The notes under the pieces: model-generated
Database searches by the model: none
The model's input: the letters and a program-made list of their open reading frames with translations, nothing else
Told to the model about the DNA's origin: nothing
Virus record (IMG/VR): IMGVR_UViG_3300030108_004301
Coordinates: 1 to 58,368 of that record
Reading direction: 5' to 3' (one strand)
Source: a virus
DNA: 58,368 bases
Shown: positions 13,275 to 53,441 of the stretch, in pieces
How the letters are laid out: every line of letters begins with the position of its first letter
How positions within the stretch are numbered: position 1 is the first letter of the stretch
Made by a program: the position numbers and the translations under genes

Positions 13275-13465
13275 CAAAAAAAGAATCAGAAAAAATATCT
13301 AACCTAGAAATAGATGTTAAGGTTATCATGGAAAAAGTAGATACTATTGAAAACAACCATCTTGCTCACATGAAAAAAGATATTGATTCTCTTAATAATA
13401 AAATATGGGGTATTGTAACATTAGCCATTGTCCAGCTTTGTGCTATTTTACTTACTACAATCTAA
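13268..13465 (+). CDS. coiled-coil plus single-TM protein, 65 aa
   Basis: GTG start at 13268 overlaps the previous gene by 7 bases. Residues 5-45 form a heptad-patterned coiled coil, and residues 47-64 (WGIVTLAIVQLCAILLTT) a membrane helix. This resembles XhlA-like haemolysin/holin accessory proteins. A lysis-accessory role is a guess from topology. Confidence 0.6.
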   Translation: MVTKKESEKISNLEIDVKVIMEKVDTIENNHLAHMKKDIDSLNNKIWGIVTLAIVQLCAILLTTI

Positions 13466-13728
13466 TGCCGATAACACGCTCCCAAATGACAAAACAAATA
13501 TCCAAGGGAACAAAGAAAAAGAAAAAAGTAAAGATTCCAAAAAAATATTTAGCTGGTTTATCTGGTAAAGAATTAGCTAAACGGAAAAAAGAGATTAACA
13601 AAAACGCAAGAAAATCTTCAAAAGACCCATCAGCATATAAGTTTGCTACTGATTTTACTGCTGGTGGAAAGAGAAGAAAAACAAAAGAATCTAAACATAC
13701 CAAAAAATTTAGGAGGATGTATGGTTAA
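13465..13728 (+). CDS. Lys/Arg-rich basic protein, 87 aa
   Basis: Starts MPITRSQ at an ATG sharing one base with the preceding TAA. Extremely basic (GTKKKKKVKIPKKYLAG, KGGKRRKTKESKHTKKFRRM). It looks like a nucleic-acid-binding or virion-internal protein. No named family. Confidence 0.6.
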   Translation: MPITRSQMTKQISKGTKKKKKVKIPKKYLAGLSGKELAKRKKEINKNARKSSKDPSAYKFATDFTAGGKRRKTKESKHTKKFRRMYG

Positions 13729-13855
13729 AAAAACTAAAAACAAAAAAAGTTTTGCTAAAAATGGTAAAACTAACGGTTTATCAGCTAAACAGAAAAAATT
13801 ACCTAAATCTCTTCAAGCTGCTATCTTAAAAGCTAAGAAGAAAAAAAGAGGCTAA
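13721..13855 (+). CDS. tiny Lys-rich protein, 44 aa
   Basis: ATG at 13721 is set by AGGAGG at 13711-13716 and overlaps the previous gene by 8 bases. More than a third of residues are Lys. Likely DNA- or RNA-binding by charge. No family recognised. Confidence 0.55.
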   Translation: MVKKTKNKKSFAKNGKTNGLSAKQKKLPKSLQAAILKAKKKKRG

Positions 13856-13856
13856 A

Positions 13857-14123
13857 ATGGCGTTAAGTGCGAAAACTAAAAAAACTTTAGCTGAAAAAGC
13901 TAAAAAAGCTAGAGCCAAAGGTAAAAAAGTAACTGCTGGTCAATTAGCAAGAGTGTATAACAAAGGTCTTGCCGCTTATAGAACAGGACACCGTCCAGGA
14001 GCCTCACCTAATCAATGGGCTATGGCTAGGGTAAACTCTGTGCTTACTGGTGGAAAAGCTGCAAAAGTAGACGCTCACATTTTTGGTAAAGGTAAAAAGA
14101 AAAAGAAAACTACAACAGCATAG
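13857..14123 (+). CDS. conserved basic protein with RTGHRPGAS motif
   Basis: 88 aa. A helical core reads AGQLARVYNKGLAAYRTGHR followed by PGASPNQWAMARVNSVLTGG, between Lys-rich ends. I recall this core from uncharacterised cyanophage and giant-virus proteins. Function unknown. It starts one base after the previous stop. Confidence 0.7.
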   Translation: MALSAKTKKTLAEKAKKARAKGKKVTAGQLARVYNKGLAAYRTGHRPGASPNQWAMARVNSVLTGGKAAKVDAHIFGKGKKKKKTTTA

Positions 14124-36371: not shown

Positions 36372-36478
36372 GATATAAAAACGAATTACATAAAGAAAAA
36401 TTTCCCTCTCACAAAATTTTAGGGTATAAATGTCCAGTTGTTATTTGGAACGAAAAAGCAAAAAGATTATTTTATTAA
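36344..36478 (+). CDS. possible small protein, 44 aa
   Basis: ATG at 36344 lies inside the end of the previous gene. The frame ends 4 bases into the convergent minus-strand helicase gene. Composition is plausible (YDVRYKNELHKEKFPSHKIL) but there is no clear ribosome binding site. Confidence 0.3.
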   Translation: MDSIAIYDVRYKNELHKEKFPSHKILGYKCPVVIWNEKAKRLFY

Positions 36479-37923
36479 ATAATCCACTCTTTATAACCCT
36501 CTGCTAATACCTGAGTACTTATATTTATTTTATCTCTTAATGCTTTTATAATTTTTTCATCAACAGTTTTTTCTACAACAATATCTACATAAGTAACTTT
36601 GTTTTCTTGTCCTATACGATGAGCTCTATCTTCACTTTGTAAACGCACCTCTAAATCATAACCATTACTATAATAAACAACAGTCTTTGCTTGGGTAAGG
36701 GTTAGTCCATATCCTCCTGTTCTAGGTTGTCCTACAAAAAACCTAAGTGGATTGTCAGGGTTTTGAAAACTAGAAACAATGGATTGTCTTTCTTCTGCAG
36801 GAGTGCCGCCATAAAAAAGTTCAACTGATTCTTTACCATATTTTTTAGATATTTCTTTTTGTATGGAAAGTATATCGTTTGTGAAGTTAGCCCAAATAAT
36901 CACTTTTCCATCTGTTTCTTCTAACAAAGACATAAGTTCAGGTAATTTATTTGTCGGTACTTTTACTTCTTCTCCTGTATCTAATTTAGCAAACCCAGAA
37001 CATATTTGTTGTAATCTAAGTATTTGTGTAAGAACAGTAGAAGTGCTAATCATACCCTCGTTTTCTGAGTTAGAAATAAAGGCTAACGCAGAACTTTTTA
37101 GTTGTTTATATAATGTGTTTTGTTCTGCAGTAAGTTCAACAGTTCTTTTAGTATATACTTTATCAGGTAAATCCAAACACTCTTCTTTTTTTACTCTGAA
37201 ACTAAAATCAGATATTATAGAATTTAATTCATCTAAATTTTGATAACCTATAATTTGGTTAAAAGAATGCGAACCCACACTTCTTCTTATTATTTTAGCA
37301 TATCTGTTTTGAAAAGTCCAAAAGGAAGAATGCCTTAAACACTTTGTATTTAAAAATTCACATTGGGTAAATAAGTCAAGTGGTGATTTTGTAACAGGCG
37401 ATCCTGTAAGTATCCTTCTGTATTCTGTATGTGCTGCAAGTTTTATAAGATTTTTTGTTCTAGTTGCTGTTCGTGATTTTATGGTTGTACTTTCATCTAC
37501 AGCGAGTAGTGATTTATTTGCTAATAAAAATTTCTGTGCGGCTGCTAAACCTTTCTTTGTAGATAAGGCCTCTACATTCATAAGAAATATTTTTAATTTG
37601 TCCATAGGTTCTAACAAAGATTTAAACTGTTTTAAATATTTTGCTGATTGGCTAGGTGACCATACAACTAAATGGGATTGTATGTGGTCGGGTAAATGTG
37701 TAGGTATTTCTTTTTGCTCCCAGTTTCTATACACACCTTTTGGTGCAATTATAAATGCTGAGCCTATTAACTTTTCATCATATAATATACTTATATTATC
37801 AATTAAAACCTTAGATTTACCAGTTCCCATATCCATAAAGTAAGCGAAATATTTTTGATAACAAGACTTTTCAAGTGCCTTTAACTGGTGTTCATAGGGT
37901 TTGAATTTAAAATTATATTTCAT
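36475..37923 (-). CDS. SNF2-family (SF2) helicase/ATPase
   Basis: 482 aa. Walker A MGTGKS (32-37), DEST motif II, TGSPV motif III, and in the second RecA domain QPRTGGYGLTLTQAKTVVYY and the SNF2 hallmark QSEDRAHRIGQ (motif VI). SNF2 enzymes translocate on duplex DNA and remodel protein-DNA complexes. Here it could aid replication or recombination. It is the only clear minus-strand gene, divergent from the replication operon. Confidence 0.9.
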   Translation of the reverse strand: MKYNFKFKPYEHQLKALEKSCYQKYFAYFMDMGTGKSKVLIDNISILYDEKLIGSAFIIAPKGVYRNWEQKEIPTHLPDHIQSHLVVWSPSQSAKYLKQFKSLLEPMDKLKIFLMNVEALSTKKGLAAAQKFLLANKSLLAVDESTTIKSRTATRTKNLIKLAAHTEYRRILTGSPVTKSPLDLFTQCEFLNTKCLRHSSFWTFQNRYAKIIRRSVGSHSFNQIIGYQNLDELNSIISDFSFRVKKEECLDLPDKVYTKRTVELTAEQNTLYKQLKSSALAFISNSENEGMISTSTVLTQILRLQQICSGFAKLDTGEEVKVPTNKLPELMSLLEETDGKVIIWANFTNDILSIQKEISKKYGKESVELFYGGTPAEERQSIVSSFQNPDNPLRFFVGQPRTGGYGLTLTQAKTVVYYSNGYDLEVRLQSEDRAHRIGQENKVTYVDIVVEKTVDEKIIKALRDKINISTQVLAEGYKEWII

Positions 37924-39837: not shown

Positions 39838-41379
39838 ATGAACTCTAATAATTTAACAAAAACAATTGCAGAAAACTTGTTTTCAATTTTTCAGGGAAGT
39901 GATATTGCTCATGGAACATTTGTCACTAAAGGAACCTCCATAAATGGAAAAAAACAAGGTGTAGCTAAAGTTATTAGAGAACCAACAACCGTTGAGATGT
40001 GGGAAAAGCATCTCAATGGTGAGGTTGGTATAGGTATTATACCCATAAAAAGCGATAATAATTGTTTTTGGGGTGCAATAGATATTGATGAATATGATAT
40101 AAAACACAAAAAACTGTGTGAAAACCTTTTGAAAAATAAAATTCCTGCAGTAGTGGGAAGAACAAAAAGTGGTGGAGCTCACATATGGGTGTTTGTTTCT
40201 ACCGCAATCCCAGCAGAAGATATGCAAAGAAAAATGACAGAACTATCTGCTGCTCTTGGTTTTTCTGGTAGTGAAATATTTCCTAAACAAACAACTATAT
40301 TGTTAGAAAGAGGGGATACAGGAAACTTTTTAAATATGCCATACTTTTCTGGTTCTAAAAGCACACGATATGCTTTTGATGATAATGGCAACGCTGTTTC
40401 TGTAGAAGAATTTATAAAACTAGCCAAACAAAAAACGATAACACCTAACAAGTTTTTTAGTTTAGATTTTAGTTTTGGTGTTCCCAAAGAAGTTTTAAAA
40501 GATGGACCTCCGTGTTTACAGCATCTTTGTAAACAGGGTTTTGCTGAGGGATCACGAAACAATGCTCTTTTTAATTTAGGTGTTTATGCAAGATTACTAG
40601 ACCCAGATAATTGGGAAAACTTAATACAAAGATACAATATGGATTACTTAGATCCTCCTCTAAGCCACAGTGAGGTAGGAGCAGTAATAAGACAGTTAAA
40701 GAAAAAAGATTATTTTTACAAATGTGACGATCAACCGATAAAACCTTTTTGTGATAAAGAAGTATGTAAGACTAGAAAATATGGTGTAGGACCAAATGGT
40801 ATAGGTAATGATTTAAGTTCTCTAACTAAAATAGATGGTGACCCACCCATATGGATTTTAAATGTAGATGGGTTGAGAGTTGAGCTTTCTACTAATGGTT
40901 TAACTTCTCAAACACAGTTTCAAAAAGAGTGTGTTTCACAAATAAATAAATACCCACAAAGCGTCAACCAAAGGGCTTGGCAAGTAAGAATACAAACACT
41001 ATTAGATAATCTGACGATAGTCGAGGTTCCGCCTGATGCTACTATAAAAGGTGAGTTTGAAGATTTACTTCATGCGTTTGCCTGTGAGCGAGCAAAAGGA
41101 GAAGAAAAAGAAGATATTTTACAGGGAGTGGCAGTCTGGTATAATGATAAAGTATTTTTCCTAGTAAAAGATTTAAAAAAGCATTTGACCGTGAACGATT
41201 TTAACCATTACACTTCCAACAAAATAACACTAAGATTACAAGATTTAAAATCAGAAAAAACATTTTGGAGGGTAAGAGGTAAAGGTGTTCATGTTTGGTC
41301 ACTTCCTCAGAAATATTTTAAACCACAAGAAGAGAACATACCATTACCTGATCTTCCTCAACCGAAAGATGTCATATGA
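39838..41379 (+). CDS. TOTE-type archaeo-eukaryotic primase
   Basis: 513 aa. The AEP core shows GAIDIDEYD (metal-binding D82, D84), GRTKSGGAHIWVF (His115) and FPKQTTI, the arrangement in the primase of TOTE conflict systems and many phages. A helical segment (about 230-300) contains clustered Cys near CKTRK, and the C-terminal 200 residues resemble a fused DNA-processing domain. Probably makes replication primers. It overlaps the next gene by 4 bases. Confidence 0.8.
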   Translation: MNSNNLTKTIAENLFSIFQGSDIAHGTFVTKGTSINGKKQGVAKVIREPTTVEMWEKHLNGEVGIGIIPIKSDNNCFWGAIDIDEYDIKHKKLCENLLKNKIPAVVGRTKSGGAHIWVFVSTAIPAEDMQRKMTELSAALGFSGSEIFPKQTTILLERGDTGNFLNMPYFSGSKSTRYAFDDNGNAVSVEEFIKLAKQKTITPNKFFSLDFSFGVPKEVLKDGPPCLQHLCKQGFAEGSRNNALFNLGVYARLLDPDNWENLIQRYNMDYLDPPLSHSEVGAVIRQLKKKDYFYKCDDQPIKPFCDKEVCKTRKYGVGPNGIGNDLSSLTKIDGDPPIWILNVDGLRVELSTNGLTSQTQFQKECVSQINKYPQSVNQRAWQVRIQTLLDNLTIVEVPPDATIKGEFEDLLHAFACERAKGEEKEDILQGVAVWYNDKVFFLVKDLKKHLTVNDFNHYTSNKITLRLQDLKSEKTFWRVRGKGVHVWSLPQKYFKPQEENIPLPDLPQPKDVI

Positions 41380-42017
41380 ATAATGTTTTTTTCTCTAAAA
41401 AATACCAAGCGTATGTAAGGGAAAACACTTTGGATGAGTATATTTTTGGAGAAATATCATCTGCCTATAAAGACCTTGAAATAAAAAAAGGTGATGTAGT
41501 TTTAGATTTAGGAGCAAACATAGGTGCTTTCGCAAAACAAGCAGCAGAAAAGGACGCAATCGTACATTGTTACGAGCCTGAACCTAGTAACTTTACTCTT
41601 TTACAGTTAAACAGCCCGAACACTTATAATCATAAGAAGGCGGTTGTAGGTAAACAAAATGGAAAGATAAAACTATTTATAAATTCTAAAAGAAACAAGG
41701 GTATCCATATGATAAGGCCAGTGAATGGAAGAGAAAGCATAGAAGTAGAAACTGTTTCTTTTGGTGACCTTATAAATGAAATAAAACCAAACAAAATAAA
41801 AATAGATGTAGAGGGAGCAGAGTATGATTTTTTACCTTATGAGTTTCCCAGTTTTGTAGAAAGACTTGTTATGGAAATACATTTTCAGTACGACCCTTCT
41901 TGGAGAAAACTAGGTAGGGAAGTTCATGAAAATATGATCAAGCAAGGTTTTTCTTCTTTAAAAGAATTTAAAGACACAGGGAAAAACTGGCATATTATAG
42001 GAGCGTATGTAAGATAA
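41376..42017 (+). CDS. FkbM-family SAM-dependent methyltransferase
   Basis: 213 aa. SAM motif I VVLDLGANIGAFAKQAA (about 40-56), motif II acid in VHCYEPEPSN, and IKIDVEGAEYDFLPY, the FkbM hallmark. FkbM enzymes usually O-methylate sugars or small molecules. Overlap with the primase and helicase genes places it in the replication operon, so methylation of a modified base or its sugar is a possible role. Confidence 0.8.
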   Translation: MNNVFFSKKYQAYVRENTLDEYIFGEISSAYKDLEIKKGDVVLDLGANIGAFAKQAAEKDAIVHCYEPEPSNFTLLQLNSPNTYNHKKAVVGKQNGKIKLFINSKRNKGIHMIRPVNGRESIEVETVSFGDLINEIKPNKIKIDVEGAEYDFLPYEFPSFVERLVMEIHFQYDPSWRKLGREVHENMIKQGFSSLKEFKDTGKNWHIIGAYVR

Positions 42018-43537: not shown

Positions 43538-43627
43538 CAAAAGAAATAAAAAAAGTTATCAGTAGCAATAATTTATATACAATTAATAATGTATTAAATG
43601 TTAATAATTTTTAAAGAAAGGAAATTT

Positions 43628-44653
43628 ATGTCGCATTTAGTAGAAACAATGGCTTATGCTGGAGAAGTTCCTTGGCATGGTCTAGGCAAACAAGTATCTG
43701 ACAATATGTCACCAAGTGATATGTTAAAAGCTGCTGAACTTGACTGGACAGTTACCAAGAGACCAGCATATACAATAGACAAGCCAGATTGTTGGAACAT
43801 AGTTGACCCAACTGGGGAAGCTAACTTTCTTCGTTGTGAAGATAATTACTTCCTAGTTCGTGATAGTGATAATAAAATACTATCACCTTGTGGGGAAAAC
43901 TATGTACCTTTTCAAAACGCAGAAGTGATGAGCTTTTTTAAGAAGTTTACACAAGCTGGACAAATGAAAATGGATACAGCAGGAAGCTTGAAACATGGTA
44001 AAGATATTTGGGGTTTAGCCAAACTCAGCGATAACTTTACACTTCCAGGAGATGACCGTATGGAGGGTTATCTTCTTTTAAATAATAGTCATCAGGTTGG
44101 TAAAGCTATGACTATTATGTTCACGCCTGTCAGGGTTGTGTGTAATAACACTCTTACTATGGCACTTGATTCAGGAGCAGAACGCTTCAGAGTTTTACAT
44201 TTACAAATGTTTGACGAAGAGGTAAAAAAAGCTGCTGAGGAAGCACTTGGTTTGAGTAACGCCTTATCCAAAACATTTAGTGAACAAGCTAATTTTTTAA
44301 GTTCCAAGAGGGCAAGAAGCCCAGAACTTGAAAAGTTTATAGCTGAACTTTTTCAACCCAATCTTTTGATTGAACGAGGTAAGGTCTCTGACCATTCCAA
44401 ACTTCCGCCAATACAAGATGAGTTTAAAAGGAACGCTGAACTTGTTTATGACGCAGTTGAGACTTCTCCTGGAGCAAGTCTTAAATCTGCAAAGGGTACT
44501 TGGTGGGGTGCTTTGAACGCTGTGACTTATGTTGTAGACCACAAGAAAAAATCACAAGAAAAGGGTAATTCTCTTCATTCTGCGTGGTTTGGTTCTGGAG
44601 CACAAGTAAAACGCAAGGCACTTAAGAAAGCACTTGAGTACGCAGAGGCGTAG
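43628..44653 (+). CDS. DUF932 phage/plasmid-like protein
   Basis: 341 aa, starting MSHLVETMAYAGEVPWHGLG after AAAGGA. WHGLG near the N-terminus, LLLNNSHQVGKAMTIMFTPV, RVVCNNTLTMAL and WGALNAVTYVVDHK are the DUF932 / phage-plasmid-like (TIGR03299) landmarks. Widespread in phages and plasmids near replication or recombination genes. The molecular function is not established. Upstream in-frame ATG 43598 is rejected for lack of ribosome binding site. Confidence 0.85.
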   Translation: MSHLVETMAYAGEVPWHGLGKQVSDNMSPSDMLKAAELDWTVTKRPAYTIDKPDCWNIVDPTGEANFLRCEDNYFLVRDSDNKILSPCGENYVPFQNAEVMSFFKKFTQAGQMKMDTAGSLKHGKDIWGLAKLSDNFTLPGDDRMEGYLLLNNSHQVGKAMTIMFTPVRVVCNNTLTMALDSGAERFRVLHLQMFDEEVKKAAEEALGLSNALSKTFSEQANFLSSKRARSPELEKFIAELFQPNLLIERGKVSDHSKLPPIQDEFKRNAELVYDAVETSPGASLKSAKGTWWGALNAVTYVVDHKKKSQEKGNSLHSAWFGSGAQVKRKALKKALEYAEA

Positions 44654-44785: not shown

Positions 44786-45709
44786 TTGAACACAACTCCC
44801 CAAACATTATTTCAACAAGATAAAGTAGAAAGTTTTTATAATTGGATTAATGAACGCCACAAAATATATCAAAAAAGATTACAAGGTTATCCTCCTCCGT
44901 GGACTGATGACCCAATACTACAGAAATATAAATTCACAAACCCATTCAGAGAAAACGATCGTGTTACTGTATGGATGAGAAACAACTGGACAACACCAAA
45001 CGACAACAAAAAGAATGCTGCTGAAATTATATTTAATTGCTGTTTGTTTAGAATGATAGGCACTATAGAATTTGCTGAAGATCACGGTTGGGTAAAAAAT
45101 AATTGGAATCCAGAAAAAACTAAAAAAATAATAGAAGATAGGTTAAGTAAAAAACAAAGAACATTTACTGGAGCATATATAATTACGAATCAGGGTATTT
45201 CTGCACCTAAAAAAGATGTAGTTGTAGATGAGTTCCTTGTACCGATTTGGAAAAACAAAAATGCAATTGCTGAAAATGCAGCTCATTATCAAACATTACA
45301 AAAAACCCACGAAAAATTAGGTGAATACAAAGGGTGGGGAGGCGGTGGTTTTATGGCTTATGAAGTTGTTTCTGACCTTAATTATACCTCTGTTCTAAAC
45401 AAAGCAGCGGATCGTTACACTTGGGCAAATGCAGGACCAGGAGCAATACGAGGAATAAATAGAATAGAAGGTGCTAACTTAAAACGATCTATGAAACCAG
45501 AAATATCTAATCAAAAAATGCAAAAAATTTTAGATTTAAAGTATGTTTATACTGCCGAACACATTGATGTTGCTTCTGTCGATATGAGAACAATAGAACA
45601 CAGTTTGTGTGAGTGGGATAAATATGAGAGAGTAAGACTCAATCAAGGCAGACCAAGAAGTAAGTTTTCTTGGAGCCATAACAAAATAGATAGTGGAGGA
45701 GTAAGATGA
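44786..45709 (+). CDS. 5-hmdU DNA kinase helical-domain (aGPT-Pplase-like) protein
   Basis: 307 aa, TTG start with GAAAGGG 5 bases upstream. INERHKIYQKR..G.PPPWTDDPILQKYKFTN.FRENDRVT, GFMAYEVVSDL and WANAGPGAIRGINR are the landmarks of the helical domain of phage 5-hydroxymethyl-dU DNA kinases, also called alpha-glutamyl/putrescinyl thymine pyrophosphorylases. These activate hydroxymethyluracil in DNA for hypermodification. No Walker A P-loop is visible, so it may lack the kinase half or use a partner. It overlaps the glycosyltransferase gene by 4 bases. Confidence 0.75.
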   Translation: MNTTPQTLFQQDKVESFYNWINERHKIYQKRLQGYPPPWTDDPILQKYKFTNPFRENDRVTVWMRNNWTTPNDNKKNAAEIIFNCCLFRMIGTIEFAEDHGWVKNNWNPEKTKKIIEDRLSKKQRTFTGAYIITNQGISAPKKDVVVDEFLVPIWKNKNAIAENAAHYQTLQKTHEKLGEYKGWGGGGFMAYEVVSDLNYTSVLNKAADRYTWANAGPGAIRGINRIEGANLKRSMKPEISNQKMQKILDLKYVYTAEHIDVASVDMRTIEHSLCEWDKYERVRLNQGRPRSKFSWSHNKIDSGGVR

Positions 45710-47010
45710 AATTTCTAATTACTTTTTTTCAGATACAAGATTATGGTGGAATAATAAACCATACCGAATATTTAACAGCAGGACTTAAGGAACTAGGACA
45801 TACTGTTGATATAGCTATGCTTGTTCCAAAGCACGGAGTTGTAAGAACAAGTTTACCAAAAGATATAGAAGATAAAACTAAGTATTCAATAAACCCAAAA
45901 GGAACTAACCTTTATCACAATCAAGCTAGAGGTTGGTATGGTATGACCAAAATACCTTATTTAAATGAGTACAGAAAAAATAAGTTTAAGGAAGATTGTT
46001 CTAATTATGACGCAGTCATTTGGCAAATTCCTGTTCCTACACTCAGTAAAGAAAACAAAGGTGTAAAAGATTGGTATGACTTATATAGCACAGGAACTAA
46101 AAACATAGCTGTCATACACGATGGTAACCTACCAAACTTATATCCTCATTTAGCGAGTGTTCAAAATAAGTTTTATTCTATGATTTGTGTTCATGAATCA
46201 GCATTTGAATCTGCTGAAAACATACAAATACCTAGAATGTTAGTTGTAAACCCTCATGACATACAAAAACAAGGACAGTATGGACAAAAGAAGTTTGAAG
46301 AAAAAGATGGTTTAGTTGCCATACAAATATTCAAAGGGTGGAAAAGAGTAGACTCTTTAGTACGAGCTATACCTTTTATGAACAATAAAGAACAAAAAAT
46401 TGTTGGAGGAGCAGGAATAGAATATAGATATATGACTAGCAAAGAAAAGTGCAAACCAAAATACTTTGAATCAAATGGTTCCAGAATATGGGATAATGCC
46501 TTAGCAAGTGGAATGGAATATGTTGGTGTTGTTGATAATGAAAAAGTATTTAATTATCTAAACAATGCAAAAGTACACATAGACCCAAGTTGGTCAAAAA
46601 AATATCACGCCTTTGGTTCTCATTTTAATAGAACAACAATTGAAGCTATGATATCAGGTTGCTTACCTATCGCTACAGATTTAGGTATGGGTAATTCTGA
46701 TATATTTAAAAAGAATAAAAACTATGTAGAAATATCACACGAAGCTACACCAAAACAATTTGCAGAAATTGTTGACGATTGTTTACAAAATAAAAGTAAG
46801 TGGCAAACGATTACAGATAATAATTGTGAAAAGCTACAAGAGTTCGACATGAAAAAAGTAGCAGATGAATATGTTGAAATTATTAAAGGCGGCTATGATA
46901 CGAAAAAAATAAAGAATGGACTAAACAACAATGAAATTATTACAAAATGCAACGATAATTTAGAATTTTTTAATTTTGGATTCCGTATGGAGCTCCCTCG
47001 ATCTGATTGA
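45706..47010 (+). CDS. GT4-family glycosyltransferase
   Basis: 434 aa. An N-terminal GT-B acceptor domain with the glycine loop (FQIQDYGGIINHTEYLTAGL), then a donor domain with VAIQIFKGWKRVDSLVRAIP, nucleotide-binding HIDPSWSKKY and the E-x7-E-like region FNRTTIEAMISGCLPIATDL. GT4 enzymes use NDP-sugars. The overlap with the modification gene suggests transfer to a hydroxymethylated base in phage DNA, analogous to known hmC/hmU glucosyltransferases. Target inferred. Confidence 0.75.
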   Translation: MKFLITFFQIQDYGGIINHTEYLTAGLKELGHTVDIAMLVPKHGVVRTSLPKDIEDKTKYSINPKGTNLYHNQARGWYGMTKIPYLNEYRKNKFKEDCSNYDAVIWQIPVPTLSKENKGVKDWYDLYSTGTKNIAVIHDGNLPNLYPHLASVQNKFYSMICVHESAFESAENIQIPRMLVVNPHDIQKQGQYGQKKFEEKDGLVAIQIFKGWKRVDSLVRAIPFMNNKEQKIVGGAGIEYRYMTSKEKCKPKYFESNGSRIWDNALASGMEYVGVVDNEKVFNYLNNAKVHIDPSWSKKYHAFGSHFNRTTIEAMISGCLPIATDLGMGNSDIFKKNKNYVEISHEATPKQFAEIVDDCLQNKSKWQTITDNNCEKLQEFDMKKVADEYVEIIKGGYDTKKIKNGLNNNEIITKCNDNLEFFNFGFRMELPRSD

Positions 47011-47066
47011 GGGTGTTCCGCATACAAAACTACCTTGCTAATAATAATGAAAACACAGGAGGAAAT

Positions 47067-48062
47067 ATGGAACATATAGCGGCTAGGAATGTAAGTGACG
47101 GCCTTTACCTTACAAAATTAAGTCTTTTAGAAGTAGGGAAGAAAGAAAACACGAGAAACGGTTGGGTTTTAGAATTTCCCACTCCTTTTTGCGTGACATA
47201 TACTCATCCAACAGAAAGAGTTTTATTTTATCCAGAAAGAGATGCTAACCCTTTTTTTCATTTGATGGAATCTTTGTGGATGTTGGCAGGAAGAAATGAT
47301 GTTGAGTGGATTTCTAAGTATAATAAAAGGATTTCTGATTACAGTGATAATGGAAGAACATTTCATGGAGCATATGGACATCGGTGGCGTAATCATTTTA
47401 GGGGAGGACCAAAAGAGTTTAAAGATCAGTTAGACCAAGTTATGATTAGATTACATAAATTTCCAAATGATCGTAGGGCTGTTGTTTCTATGTGGGATCC
47501 TAATGTTGATTTAGTAATGCACAATGATGGAAAGGATTATCCTTGTAACACTCAAATATTTTTTTCTAAAAGAGGGAAAGTTTTAAATATGACAGTGATA
47601 AATAGAAGTAATGATATTGTGTGGGGATTATTTGGTGCTAATGCAGTTCATATGTCTATGTTACAAGAATATATGGCAGCTAGAACAGAAAGCGAAGTTG
47701 GAACATATATTCACTTTAGTAACAATGCTCACGCTTACTTGGATACATTAGAAAAAATAAAAGATATGCAACCAGATTATGAATCTTATTTAATTATTGG
47801 GGACGATGCTTCACAATACCACTCACAACCGTTAGTAGATAACTGGTTAACTTTTGATGAAGAGTTAGCATTATGGTTTAGGAATGAGGAGGTAAATGTC
47901 TTTGAAAATAAATTTCTTTCTCTTACAGCTTTTAGAGTAAGGGAGGGTTGGCACTTTTGGAAACAAAAGAATATAAACAAAGCTATCGAAATATGTAAAA
48001 CGATAGAAGATCGTGCTTGGCGTAAAGCGTGTGTGGAGTGGCTTGAAAGGAGGAACAAATGA
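47067..48062 (+). CDS. ThyA-family protein, probable dUMP hydroxymethylase
   Basis: 331 aa. AGGAGG at 47057-47062 selects ATG 47067 over TTG 47007. Conserved: R30, E68, R136-R137, nucleophile C160 (YPCN), NRSND (R180, D183), dUMP-specific N192, H and Y of NAHAYLD. E. coli W80 is S90, W83 is S93 and L143 is D157, and the usual C-terminus ending AV/AI is absent. Known phage dUMP hydroxymethylases are ThyA relatives that release 5-hydroxymethyl-dUMP. W80 and L143 control hydride transfer, so this one probably does not make dTMP. Confidence 0.7.
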   Translation: MEHIAARNVSDGLYLTKLSLLEVGKKENTRNGWVLEFPTPFCVTYTHPTERVLFYPERDANPFFHLMESLWMLAGRNDVEWISKYNKRISDYSDNGRTFHGAYGHRWRNHFRGGPKEFKDQLDQVMIRLHKFPNDRRAVVSMWDPNVDLVMHNDGKDYPCNTQIFFSKRGKVLNMTVINRSNDIVWGLFGANAVHMSMLQEYMAARTESEVGTYIHFSNNAHAYLDTLEKIKDMQPDYESYLIIGDDASQYHSQPLVDNWLTFDEELALWFRNEEVNVFENKFLSLTAFRVREGWHFWKQKNINKAIEICKTIEDRAWRKACVEWLERRNK

Positions 48063-48460
48063 AAAGCAGAATACTTCAGGAAGTTGAAAAACTAGCACAA
48101 GAAGATGCCTTTAAGTTAGAAGAGGCTGAAAAATCTTATGGTGATAGTTGGAAAAAAAGGGGAGGCGTTGGTGCATTCATGATGTTAGCTAGAAAATGGG
48201 ATAGAATAGCTCAGCAAAACAGCATGAAAAACACAGGATACGATATATTTAAGGCAATAAAGCAAGACGGTTATTCTGAAACAGGATTGTTAGATGATAT
48301 CCGTGACTTAAGAAGGTATTTACTTTTAGTAGAGGCTGAAATGTTTTTAAGAAGAGAGGGTGATCATCCTGTTAAAAGACATTTAAACACACAGTTCAGT
48401 CCTTATGAAAATGAAGAGGGTATGATTAGTGATAGTTGTGAGTGGAGAACAGATGAATGA
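48059..48460 (+). CDS. DUF1599/Nmad1-like small protein, 133 aa
   Basis: Core KSYGDSWKKRGGVGAFMMLA, RKWDRIAQQ, YDIFKAIK and LLDDIRDLRRYLLLVEAEM matches a phage protein type often found with thymidylate synthase homologues and related, in my judgement, to the nucleotide-modification-associated DUF1599 group. Helical, with possible MazG-like metal-binding acids. It overlaps the ThyA-like gene by 4 bases. Function predicted only. Confidence 0.5.
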   Translation: MKSRILQEVEKLAQEDAFKLEEAEKSYGDSWKKRGGVGAFMMLARKWDRIAQQNSMKNTGYDIFKAIKQDGYSETGLLDDIRDLRRYLLLVEAEMFLRREGDHPVKRHLNTQFSPYENEEGMISDSCEWRTDE

Positions 48461-48617
48461 TAAACTTTCTCAGTCAGTTATTGTTTTCTGCTCAGAATGT
48501 AACATCACACAGAGAAAAACTTGGAGAAAAATTAAGAACAAGTGGCCTCGGTGTAAAAAATGTAAACAACAAATGGTGGTGAAAATATATGGGTCAAATA
48601 CCTCTACTTCAACCTGA
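48453..48617 (+). CDS. zinc-ribbon mini-protein, 54 aa
   Basis: ATG at 48453 overlaps the previous stop. CSEC (13-16) and CKKC (about 34-37) form a C-x2-C..C-x2-C zinc ribbon. It overlaps the polymerase start by 29 bases. Such mini-proteins often bind nucleic acid or proteins. No family assigned. Confidence 0.6.
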   Translation: MNDKLSQSVIVFCSECNITQRKTWRKIKNKWPRCKKCKQQMVVKIYGSNTSTST

Positions 48618-50454
48618 ATACGAATGGGTAATGCCAGATGAGTTTCCTGACTTATCAGGTTTTAAAGAAATTTCTATAGACTTAGAAACTTGTGATAAGA
48701 ATCTACTTACCAATGGTTCTGGGTGGGCTAGAAAAGACGGCTATGTTATAGGTATCGCTGTTGCTACAGAAGGCTTCTGTAAATATTTTCCTATACAACA
48801 TGAGATAGGACCTAACCTTGACAAAAATGTCACTCTTAACTGGTTACGAGAAGTTGTTTCCTTTCCTGATAAAAAGTATATTTTCCACAATGCTCCGTAT
48901 GATGTAGGGTGGTTGATCGCAGAGGGAGTGTTCGTAAAGGGAGAAATAATAGATACTATGGTTGTTGCTCCTTTGCTTGATGAAAATAGGTTCAGTTATT
49001 CTTTAAACGCTTTAGCCAGAGATTATCTACAAGATAGAAAATCAGAAGTTGGTTTAAGAGAGGCAGCTGATGCTTTTGGAGTAAATGCAAAAAGTGAAAT
49101 GTATAAACTTCCCGCTCACTATGTCGGTGAGTATGCAGAACACGATGCTAGTCTCACACTTAAACTTTGGAATCATTTTAAAACACTAATTATAAAAGAA
49201 GATATAAAAGAAATATTTGAACTAGAAACTAAAGTTTTAAAAACTATAATTCCTATGAGAAAACAAGGTGTTCGGGTTGATTTAGAAAAAGCAGAAAAAA
49301 TTAAAAAACTTTTTGAAGAAAAAGAAAATACTTTACTTACAGAGATTAAAAATGAATCTGGTGTTTTAGTAGAAATATGGGCGGCAGATAGTGTTGCAAA
49401 AGTTTTTGATTCTTTAAAACTTTCCTACGGAAGAACAGAAAAGACACAAGCACCGTCGTTCACAAAAGGTTTCTTAGCAAACCACAAACACCCGATTGCT
49501 AGAAAAATAGTACAAGCTAGAGAATATAATAAGGCAAGAACTACTTTTATCGACACAATACTAAAACATCAAACAAAGGGTAGAATACACGCTGAGTTAC
49601 ACCCTCTTAGAAGTGATCAAGGTGGAACAGTCACTGGAAGGTTTAGTTACAGTAATCCTAACTTACAGCAAGTGCCTATAAGGAATAATGAACTAGGACC
49701 AATGATAAGAAGTTTATTTCTGCCTGAAGAAAAATGTAGTTGGGGTATCTTTGATTATTCTAGCCAAGAGCCTAGGATTGTTGTTCATTACGCAAAACTT
49801 ATGAAGTTCCAAAAAGCAGAAGAATTTGCTGAACAATACCAAAAAGATTCAAGAACTGACTTCCATCAAATGGCGGCAGATATTGTAGGTGTGCCAAGAA
49901 AACAAGCTAAAAACATTAATTTGGGGTTGTTCTATGGCATGGGAACTAAGAAACTAGCAAACCAGTTGGACTTACCATACGAAGATGCCAAAGAACTTTT
50001 TGCTGAGTATCACACTAAACTACCTTTTGTAAAAGAACTTGCAGAATATTCTAGTAATAGGGCTTCTCATAAAGGTTTAATAAGAACTCTGTTAGGGAGA
50101 AAGTGTAGGTTCGATAAGTGGGAACCTAATAAGTACGGTATATCAAAACCTTTGAATTACCAAGAAGCGTTCGCTGAACATGGACCTTCTATTCGCAGAG
50201 CCTTTACATATAAGGCTCTAAATAAATTAATTCAGGGAAGTGCAGCTGATCAAACAAAAGCAGCGATGGTCGCACTTTATGAAGAAGGTATTTTACCAAT
50301 GATACAAGTACACGATGAACTAGACATAAGCATAGAAGATGAGAGCCAAATGAAAAAGGTAATAAGTATTATGGAAGAATGTGTTGATTTAGAGGTTCCT
50401 AGCGTTGTTGACACTGAACTAGGACCAAATTGGGGTGAGTGCGTTGAAAAATAA
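48589..50454 (+). CDS. polA: family A DNA polymerase with 3'-5' exonuclease
   Basis: 621 aa. Exonuclease: D31/E33 (IDLET), HNAPYD (100-105), YAEHD (182-186). Polymerase: motif A FDYSSQEPR (D389, E394), motif B RKQAKNINLGLFYG (R437, K441, Y449), motif C QVHDE. The E. coli F762 position is Leu445. No 5'-3' nuclease domain. Replicative phage polymerase. If ThyA-like and HD genes work as proposed it must accept hydroxymethyl-dUTP. The start at 48589 is weakly supported; ATG 48631 is an alternative. Confidence 0.93.
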   Translation: MGQIPLLQPEYEWVMPDEFPDLSGFKEISIDLETCDKNLLTNGSGWARKDGYVIGIAVATEGFCKYFPIQHEIGPNLDKNVTLNWLREVVSFPDKKYIFHNAPYDVGWLIAEGVFVKGEIIDTMVVAPLLDENRFSYSLNALARDYLQDRKSEVGLREAADAFGVNAKSEMYKLPAHYVGEYAEHDASLTLKLWNHFKTLIIKEDIKEIFELETKVLKTIIPMRKQGVRVDLEKAEKIKKLFEEKENTLLTEIKNESGVLVEIWAADSVAKVFDSLKLSYGRTEKTQAPSFTKGFLANHKHPIARKIVQAREYNKARTTFIDTILKHQTKGRIHAELHPLRSDQGGTVTGRFSYSNPNLQQVPIRNNELGPMIRSLFLPEEKCSWGIFDYSSQEPRIVVHYAKLMKFQKAEEFAEQYQKDSRTDFHQMAADIVGVPRKQAKNINLGLFYGMGTKKLANQLDLPYEDAKELFAEYHTKLPFVKELAEYSSNRASHKGLIRTLLGRKCRFDKWEPNKYGISKPLNYQEAFAEHGPSIRRAFTYKALNKLIQGSAADQTKAAMVALYEEGILPMIQVHDELDISIEDESQMKKVISIMEECVDLEVPSVVDTELGPNWGECVEK

Positions 50455-50971
50455 ACTTGAGTTTTATGAACTGATACAAAAAAGATTAAAAGGTGGTGAT
50501 GTTTTAAGGTATCATACTAGACCTGAAGTTGCTGATAAACAAGATGTTGCTGCTCACAGTTGGCGTTCTTTGGTTCTGCTTACCACACTCTGGCCAGACG
50601 CAAGTAAAAACAGTATCTTATTTGTTCTTTATCATGATGTAGCTGAGCTAGAAATAGGAGATGTTCCCGCCACGACAAAATGGAAATACAAAGATTTAGC
50701 AAAAACCTTAACGGTAATAGAAAACGACTATGAGGATTTGTTGTGCCTTCCAGTGAAATATGTTGATCTTTCAGAAGAGGAACAACAAAGAGTAAAGATA
50801 GTAGATATCCTTGAATTAGTTTTTCATTGTCATAAACAAATGCAAAAAGGTAATTCTCTTGCGAGCGATATATTTTACAGAGGCATTGATTTTTTGTATT
50901 CAAACTTTAAATACAGTAAGGATTATGTTTTGATAGAAACTGTATTAGAAAAAATGAAAGGAGAGCCATGA
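50435..50971 (+). CDS. YfbR-like HD 5'-deoxynucleotidase
   Basis: 178 aa, GTG start overlapping the polymerase end. HD residues: H41 (VAAHSW), H67-D68 (YHDVAELEIGDVPATTKWKY), E71, D76 and a later Asp (VDILE). This matches YfbR, which hydrolyses dNMPs to deoxynucleosides in a metal-dependent reaction. Phages that replace thymine need to remove dTMP, so a dTMPase-like role next to the ThyA homologue is attractive but inferred. Confidence 0.75.
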   Translation: MSALKNKLEFYELIQKRLKGGDVLRYHTRPEVADKQDVAAHSWRSLVLLTTLWPDASKNSILFVLYHDVAELEIGDVPATTKWKYKDLAKTLTVIENDYEDLLCLPVKYVDLSEEEQQRVKIVDILELVFHCHKQMQKGNSLASDIFYRGIDFLYSNFKYSKDYVLIETVLEKMKGEP

Positions 50972-52896: not shown

Positions 52897-52977
52897 ATGG
52901 TAGAAGTGACTTACTTAATCTTTATCCTGCTACTTATGATAGTAGCAGGATTTTGTGTGTATCATTTATTTAAATGA
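52897..52977 (+). CDS. tiny single-TM peptide, 26 aa
   Basis: ATG at 52897, 3 bases after the previous stop. One hydrophobic helix (YLIFILLLMIVAGFCVYHL), ending in ATGA overlap with the next gene. Overlap and composition suggest it is translated, but there is no good ribosome binding site. Confidence 0.45.
   Translation: MVEVTYLIFILLLMIVAGFCVYHLFK
52924..52951 (+). terminator. 11-bp hairpin ATCCTGCTACT, possible attenuator
   Basis: Perfect arms 52924-52934 and 52941-52951 with a 6-base loop, followed by TTTTG. It falls inside the 26-aa frame. Either a leaky intergenic terminator or a structure limiting the next gene. Confidence 0.5.
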
Positions 52978-53441
52978 ACATCTTTATACTGCACCCCGAC
53001 CAATCGTTGTGTGCTAAGTATCATTGCGACAAACATATCGTAAAGATGCCTTTGGAAACAACACAGATGTTGTGTTCCGTGCATTGGCGATACAACTCAA
53101 CTGCTCCCTACCTAAAAGTTCACACCAAACATCCGTGTACCTTGTGGGCTGGAGAAACAGTTGATAACTACAAATGGCTATGGGAGTTTGGTATTGAATT
53201 ATGTAAAGAGTACACTTATCGTTACGAAAGAATCCACGCTTGTGAAAAGGTTCTTGCAATTATAAAGGATCCGCCTGTAGAATTAACCAAGAGGGGAACA
53301 ACTATTTTCCCTCAAGCTATGCCAGAGGAATATAAGCATAGAGATCCTGTGGTGGCATACAGGGAATATTATAAATATGAAAAAAGGAGATTTGCCAAAT
53401 GGAAAAAAAGAAAGACACCACCGTTCATGCAACAAATGTAG
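52974..53441 (+). CDS. conserved phage protein, possible pyrimidine-dimer glycosylase-like, 155 aa
   Basis: MNIFILHPDQSLCAKYHCDK then HIVKMPLETTQML, KHPCTLWAGETVDNYKWLWE, EYTYRYERIH and AMPEEYKHRDPVVAYREYY. This well-conserved marine phage family is often described as pyrimidine dimer DNA glycosylase-like, though I cannot see the T4 endonuclease V N-terminal catalytic Thr-2 context here. A DNA repair role is tentative. Confidence 0.6.
   Translation: MNIFILHPDQSLCAKYHCDKHIVKMPLETTQMLCSVHWRYNSTAPYLKVHTKHPCTLWAGETVDNYKWLWEFGIELCKEYTYRYERIHACEKVLAIIKDPPVELTKRGTTIFPQAMPEEYKHRDPVVAYREYYKYEKRRFAKWKKRKTPPFMQQM

Follow-up and report, generated by a model that had tools for sequence, protein, structure and literature searches.

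Gene content of the candidate thymine-replacement cassette

We analysed a 58,368-nucleotide viral sequence (the window), which is the whole of IMG/VR entry IMGVR_UViG_3300030108_004301, a record without end repeats, and focused on a cassette at positions 44,786-50,971 that a first-pass annotation had proposed as an operon for thymine hypermodification. The six-gene cassette exists, and family matches bear out most of the families named for it. All six genes lie on the plus strand. They encode, in order, a 307-residue HMUDK_hel/aGPT-PPlase1 protein (44,786-45,709; PF18723, 7.3e-54), a 434-residue GT4-like glycosyltransferase of the GT-B type (45,706-47,010; Glyco_trans_1_4 of Pfam glycosyltransferase group 1, 4.6e-8), a ThyA-family protein of 331 residues from its corrected start (47,067-48,062; Thymidylat_synt PF00303, 1.6e-24; phrog_5131, 3e-101), a small conserved protein (48,059-48,460), a replicative family A DNA polymerase, PolA (48,589-50,454; DNA_pol_A PF00476, 2e-63), and an HD-domain YfbR-like 5'-deoxynucleotidase (50,435-50,971; PF12917, 3e-7; phrog_6047, 2e-32) in which the H...HD...D motif is visible.

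Two sets of related loci were assembled for comparison. A scan of IMG/VR seeded by HMUDK_hel gave 80 loci (set 1), whose HMUDK_hel proteins form 37 groups at 95% identity, and a scan seeded by the GT4 profile only gave 53 loci, 52 of which were examined (set 2); the contigs are partly non-independent in that some represent the same or near-identical phages. A direct scan with the GT4 sequence of the window alone returned nothing, and a profile of its relatives was needed.

The description of the genes as near-contiguous with 4-base overlaps held at one junction and not at another. The ATGA overlap between the HMUDK_hel and GT4 genes recurs in 20 relatives carrying a window-like GT4 and in 11 carrying C4, another family that resembles GT4 (E = 2e-5 when the profiles are compared). 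The most likely start of the ThyA-family gene, however, is the ATG at 47,067 rather than position 47,007, because a perfect AGGAGG Shine-Dalgarno sequence precedes it and both the starts in relatives and the alignment with gp58 of the thymine-modifying phage M6 agree; the 4-base overlap between the GT4 and ThyA genes is therefore probably not real. For HMUDK_hel the open reading frame list gives a TTG start at 44,786, and the starts in relatives are slightly different. Stable RNA hairpins were observed at the junction of the glycosyltransferase stop codon and the ThyA gene (window, 46,985-47,025; L039, 10,130-10,215; L056, 9,848-9,935; z from -2.7 to -4.3), and a role in control of ThyA expression is possible.

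The small protein at 48,059-48,460, marked by the motif YGxSWKxRGG...RKWDR...DDIxDLRRYLLLVE, had no significant match in Pfam, NCBIfam or PHROGs, so its earlier label "DUF1599-like" is unsupported. It is 54-61% identical to its counterparts in relatives and 44% identical to that of the phage L147, whose backbone differs, and by these identities it travels with the module. PolA, by comparison, is on sequence kinship a core gene that is not specific to the cassette, being 56% identical to the polymerase of 023Pt_psg01, a phage that lacks the cassette. The HD protein resembles M6 gp59 (7e-9) and is proposed to remove dTMP; no dUTPase was found in the window or its relatives. A 2-aminoadenine (Z) genome, suggested by the HD protein and by DpoZ being the nearest NCBIfam model for PolA, was considered and rejected because a search for PurZ (PF00709) across the 58,368-base record gave no match and PolA scored 345 against the DpoZ cut-off of 500.

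A predicted dUMP hydroxymethylase without a detectable 5-hmdU DNA kinase

The active site of the ThyA-family protein distinguishes it from thymidylate synthases. Structural work on T4 dCMP hydroxymethylase identifies Asp at the third position ahead of the catalytic Cys as the mark of hydroxymethylases, thymidylate synthases having Leu there (PMC6400193). In the window protein (residues counted from 47,007) Asp177 lies three residues ahead of catalytic Cys180, and Asp at this position is invariant among the window, all aligned relatives, M6, PaMx11, Pam3, the SPO1 dUMP hydroxymethylase and T4 gp42, while E. coli ThyA has Leu. The best solved relative by profile was a CMP hydroxymethylase (1e-27), which ranked above every thymidylate synthase, and the closest homologues occur in thymine-modifying M6-like phages (39% identity to M6 gp58). 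The protein is thus a probable dUMP 5-hydroxymethylase, as judged from its signature residues and kinship.

These data also bear on two simpler accounts of the cassette. In the first, ThyA, HD and PolA would serve ordinary nucleotide metabolism, as a plain supply of thymine to unmodified DNA. Many phage ThyA proteins are plain thymidylate synthases, and the family is common in phages (2057 phage records match), but the Asp at -3, the closeness to M6-type enzymes and the fact that HMUDK_hel and a glycosyltransferase constantly accompany ThyA all argue otherwise, and we give this account almost no credence. In the second, cytosine would be the target, with 5-hydroxymethyl-dCMP and glycosylated 5-hydroxymethylcytosine (hmC) formed as in T4. 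The hydroxymethylase signature is common to T4 gp42, and enzymes of the TAGT family, which occur in relatives of the window, are known to act on hmC. At the base-selecting position, however, the window has Asn212, as SPO1 has Asn, and not Asp179 as in T4 (PMC6400193), so that uracil is expected over cytosine; the nearest ThyA homologues belong to M6-like thymine modifiers, and HMUDK_hel belongs to systems based on 5-hydroxymethyl-deoxyuridine (5-hmdU). A cytosine target is accordingly very improbable.

The identity of the first gene product was clear. Its match to PF18723 scored 183.5 bits, where the cut-off is 25, and spanned profile positions 4-278 of 281, so the outcome that was to have refuted the hypermodification proposal, a profile search without a match to the HMUDK_hel family, did not occur (7e-54). 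The protein is 32-35% identical to M6 gp55 and Sonora gp42, and its structural model is all-helical and confident (mean predicted local distance difference test score, pLDDT, 91). A DNA-glycosylase-like fold was entertained for it and is unsupported, the comparisons with solved structures having returned nothing. A conserved core (GAY, WAN-GPGA-RG, LCE-DKYER) is found in both the kinase-associated and the glycosyltransferase-associated members of the family, an argument for their having one function in common, for example to bind 5-hydroxymethyl-uracil (hmU) DNA.

Phages of the M6 type process hmU with a P-loop 5-hmdU DNA kinase followed by an amino acid:DNA transferase. The kinase for which the HMUDK_hel family is named was not detected. 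We searched the window, 19 relatives and 13 further GT4-bearing records and found the 5-hmdU DNA kinase (PF18748) in 0 of 33. The amino acid:DNA transferase (ADDT; PF18724, aGPT-PPlase2) was absent from the window and gave only weak sub-cutoff matches in relatives, which when traced by coordinates fall within HMUDK_hel itself; a profile comparison of the two families was likewise weak, although an LCxW motif does align. Among eight known HMUDK_hel phages used as positive controls, the kinase was found in six and ADDT in all eight. Kinase and transferase models built in this analysis found neither in the 80 loci of set 1 nor in the window, and when M6 and Pam3 proteins were searched against the window only HMUDK_hel, the thymidylate synthase homologue and the HD protein matched, with no pyridoxal phosphate (PLP) enzyme, Nmad5 or ADDT among its products. 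With neither a kinase nor a transferase gene detected, the phosphorylate-then-substitute route cited in the first-pass annotation is unlikely here. In 62 relatives, though not in the window, a protein of ~205 residues sits between HMUDK_hel and a DUF932/TIGR03299 protein; the latter is conserved in relatives and in the window lies directly upstream of the cassette (43,598-44,653, plus strand; PF06067, 8.5e-47; TIGR03299, 5e-67). The ~205-residue protein was considered as the missing kinase and gave no kinase match.

A route resembling that of M6 and ViI would require a host or undetected kinase to (pyro)phosphorylate 5-hmdU, with HMUDK_hel using the intermediate and the glycosyltransferase adding to, or accompanying, an amino-acid-type modification. 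HMUDK_hel keeps many residues that are conserved in kinase-associated homologues, and PhiW-14, in whose chemistry a pyrophosphoryl intermediate occurs (PMC5977210), shows that a kinase can evade the profile. Against this stand the uniformly negative PF18748 search, the want of PLP, Nmad5 and ADDT genes in the window, and the fact that ADDT, present in every known phage of the type, is represented here only by weak echoes of HMUDK_hel. We consider such a route unlikely.

A glycosyltransferase slot with exchangeable occupants

In set 1, where the backbone is near-uniform (L080 being a distant exception), a gene in the slot between HMUDK_hel and ThyA was present in 72 of the 72 loci that reach ThyA. 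Four types of occupant were found: the window-like GT4, C4, TAGT (PF20691) accompanied by a radical SAM/SPASM protein, and C9. TAGT, a family of phage DNA glucosyltransferases of T2 and T6 (PMC13216743), holds the slot in 29 relatives. Starting instead from GT4 (set 2), ThyA lay within 8 kb in 52 of 52 loci and HMUDK_hel was present in all 48 with readable upstream sequence, while a kinase or transferase beside GT4 was seen in none of the 52. The linkage of GT4, ThyA and HMUDK_hel persists at 30-39% glycosyltransferase identity, with other polymerases and in other gene orders (L147-L150), and GT4 was relocated yet kept in L069 and L071. L147 has the row HMUDK_hel, GT4, another gene, radical SAM, ThyA, HD and the homologue of the 48,059-48,460 protein, and the parts of the cassette therefore travel together. 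Because the block of HMUDK_hel, glycosyltransferase and ThyA recurs in dozens of viral contigs, the association exceeds chance.

Exchange at the slot was resolved most sharply in L039 and L056, which share 94.5% nucleotide identity over ~15 kb, one carrying GT4 and the other C4. Their flanks are 96.6% and 91-92% identical, and the break falls right after a shared ATGAA at the HMUDK_hel/glycosyltransferase junction. On the PolA tree, at least six changes are needed among the four slot types. L054 and L056 also have an extra gene between PolA and HD (13,295-14,119, plus strand) that is absent from the near-identical GT4 sibling; in L056 it encodes a cytidylyltransferase-like domain fused to a cupin of the mannose-6-phosphate-isomerase type and resembles heptose-phosphate adenylyltransferase, and its product may make the donor sugar.

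Three further observations were made on slot-associated genes. The radical SAM/SPASM protein adjoins TAGT in 28 relatives (e.g. L004, 5,417-6,457), lies near GT4 in L147 (11,835-12,794) and may, to judge from its family, alter the sugar or the base. C9, of ~335 residues and without a family match, fills the slot in four relatives (e.g. L074, 2,339-3,337, and L077, 8,889-9,905) and may be an unrecognised transferase. In another small phage, Manatee Spring phage ctUhy936 (L098, 8,204-10,502), the genes for TAGT, a pyrimidine hydroxymethylase and HD are consecutive; that record gave no PF18748 or PF18724 match, and no HMUDK_hel is annotated beside the TAGT row.

In Pfam, the window enzyme itself matches only general GT4 models. 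Its structural model has a GT-B fold (pLDDT 85), and fold matches in the PDB include T4 AGT in complex with HMU-containing DNA (1y8z, E = 1e-11). GT4 is proposed to be a 5-hmdU-DNA glycosyltransferase and the gene of an exchangeable slot, on the strength of its sequence context and predicted fold. If it acted instead on host surface glycans or virion proteins, its location in a nucleotide-metabolism operon would be incidental; most GT4 enzymes act on glycans, and polysaccharide and lipid-glycan enzymes are numerous among the PDB matches. This explanation is improbable: wherever the flanks of a relative can be read, the gene is linked to both ThyA and HMUDK_hel, even if the gene order differs or GT4 sits elsewhere (L128, L132), and in other relatives it is replaced by TAGT, a DNA glycosyltransferase family.

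Proposed pathway and relation to known systems

We conclude, with a probability of about 0.7, that the cassette directs thymine replacement and DNA glycosylation, such that 5-hydroxymethyl-uracil in DNA would be glycosylated directly, without a phosphorylation route. The evidence comprises gene content, signature residues, co-occurrence, the undetected kinase and amino-acid transferase, and gene-for-gene swaps. Hydroxymethyluracil decorated with a sugar, as originally suggested, appears to be the best reading because the hydroxymethylase signature is joined to a constant glycosyltransferase partner in the slot (an unassigned slot protein in a few relatives). The ThyA-family enzyme would make 5-hydroxymethyl-dUMP in place of dTMP, as its active-site signature and closest relatives suggest, and the HD nucleotidase would lower dTMP and so favour replacement. 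The phage PolA would then build 5-hmdU into DNA, the triphosphate presumably being supplied by host or other kinases, and GT4 would transfer a sugar from a nucleotide-sugar donor to the hydroxymethyl group in DNA, a step suggested by its fold, its constant linkage and its replacement by TAGT in relatives. The sugar would shield the DNA against restriction as well as against glycosylases that excise hmU.

HMUDK_hel, having no kinase partner here, may bind or present 5-hmdU DNA to the modifying enzyme that accompanies it, a speculative role to which we give somewhat less than even odds. A broader view, which we hold still more tentatively, is that HMUDK_hel is an interchangeable 5-hmU-DNA-presenting subunit, serving a kinase in M6-like phages and a glycosyltransferase here, and that swapping of the glycosyltransferase forms a DNA serotype switch in which a change of that gene alone, or sometimes of a sugar-donor gene as well, would give a new sugar coat to genomes that otherwise hardly differ.

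Several points weigh against direct glycosylation. IMG/VR records are possibly incomplete, and the end repeats are absent from this one. At the position of T4 Ser94, a secondary signature of the hydroxymethylase, the window has Gly121, and M6 also has Gly. Neither by sequence nor by fold did HMUDK_hel match any solved structure, so that no fold backs its DNA-presenting role, and the conserved residues that it keeps could signify catalysis. PhiW-14 gives no PF18748 match, so a divergent kinase could evade profiles. The GT-B match is broad, in that most retaining GT-B enzymes fit the GT4 model and T4 AGT ranks only 19th, and the sugar and acceptor of GT4 are not readable from its sequence.

The FkbM-family methyltransferase at 41,376-42,017 (plus strand; TIGR01444, 1.5e-19) had been suggested to add a further step, for which distant relatives lend some support: homologues 31-32% identical directly precede GT4 in L148 (4,132-4,794) and L149 (9,330-10,001), and another FkbM-type group (C6) is present in C4 and C9 loci. 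We tentatively propose that it O-methylates the sugar. Elsewhere in the region, an SNF2-type helicase (36,475-37,923) is the sole large minus-strand gene, and most relatives retain, downstream of the cassette, a protein resembling a Pyr_excise pyrimidine-dimer glycosylase (PF03013; in the window at 52,974-53,441).

The window encodes terminase, portal, tail and replication genes. Its PolA is 56% identical to that of 023Pt_psg01, 54% to that of DSL-LC04 and 51% to that of Pelagibacter phage HTVC027P, and its primase points to similar kin; by this kinship the phage is podovirus-like and close to the HTVC023P-type pelagiphages. A nucleotide search of isolates with the window gave zero matches. 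Both HMUDK_hel and ThyA are absent from these three closest complete genomes, in which helicase and PolA, as far as the sequence was read, are either neighbours or have just a few short genes between them. A scan of genome contigs for GT4 gave a single match, on a contig in a Flavobacteriaceae metagenome-assembled genome that is probably a phage contig of no value for host assignment.

If correct, our conclusion predicts a class of DNA base, a sugar on hydroxymethyl-uracil, in a widespread marine phage group, and uncouples HMUDK_hel from its namesake kinase, so that the role of HMUDK_hel could be tested with a purified glycosyltransferase. Near-identical phages differing mainly in the slot gene constitute natural pairs for testing the protection that each DNA sugar affords, and the cassette enzymes could serve as hmU-labelling tools. 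According to a 2019 paper, glucosylated 5-hmdU was unreported in phages (PMC6449724), and in the literature from 2021 on, in coverage that excluded the main pathway papers, no title or abstract reported it. Apparently new are the two families GT4 and C4, the lack of a kinase route and the repeated exchange at the slot.

Among known systems, the M6/YuA-type phages (5-(2-aminoethyl)-dU; Sonora, Pam3, PaMx11, SN1) share HMUDK_hel, a hydroxymethylase of the thymidylate synthase (TS) family, HD and PolA with the window in a similar order, at protein identities of 32-42%. The window, however, has no detectable 5-hmdU DNA kinase, amino acid:DNA transferase, PLP enzyme or Nmad5, and in M6 and Pam3 it is Nmad5 that occupies the slot held here by the glycosyltransferase. 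The HTVC023P-type pelagiphages, related by PolA and primase, have the same partner genes, TS and aG/PT-PPlase1 (mSystems 2022), and the portions of that report available to us describe TS, aGPT-PPlase1, deoxynucleotidase and a glucosyltransferase together (PMC9599517). The first-pass annotation's statement that no pathway with exactly this gene set had been described must accordingly be narrowed, since a similar set was noted there; it stands insofar as the window carries a GT4-family enzyme instead of their glucosyltransferase, and those portions make no mention of a missing kinase, of hydroxymethylase residues or of glycosyltransferase exchange.

The T-even phages (gp42, AGT, BGT, TAGT) resemble the window in pairing a TS-superfamily hydroxymethylase with a subsequent DNA glycosyltransferase, a proposed one in the case of the window, with the GT-B fold as in AGT, but T4 acts on dCMP (Asp179), whereas the window enzyme is predicted to act on dUMP (Asn212), and the part of T4 that was read carries no HMUDK_hel annotation. 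SPO1 and SP8, with hmU DNA, have a dUMP hydroxymethylase in which both the Asp and the Asn recur, but neither glycosyltransferase nor HMUDK_hel is annotated in the part of SPO1 that was read. Base J (glucosyl-hmU) of trypanosomes belongs to the class of product predicted here, DNA whose hmU bears a sugar, but it is made by oxidation of thymine within DNA (JBP1/2) with no nucleotide-pool route; the cassette, if the broader view above is true, would provide the first phage glycosylated hydroxymethyl-uracil made via the nucleotide pool.

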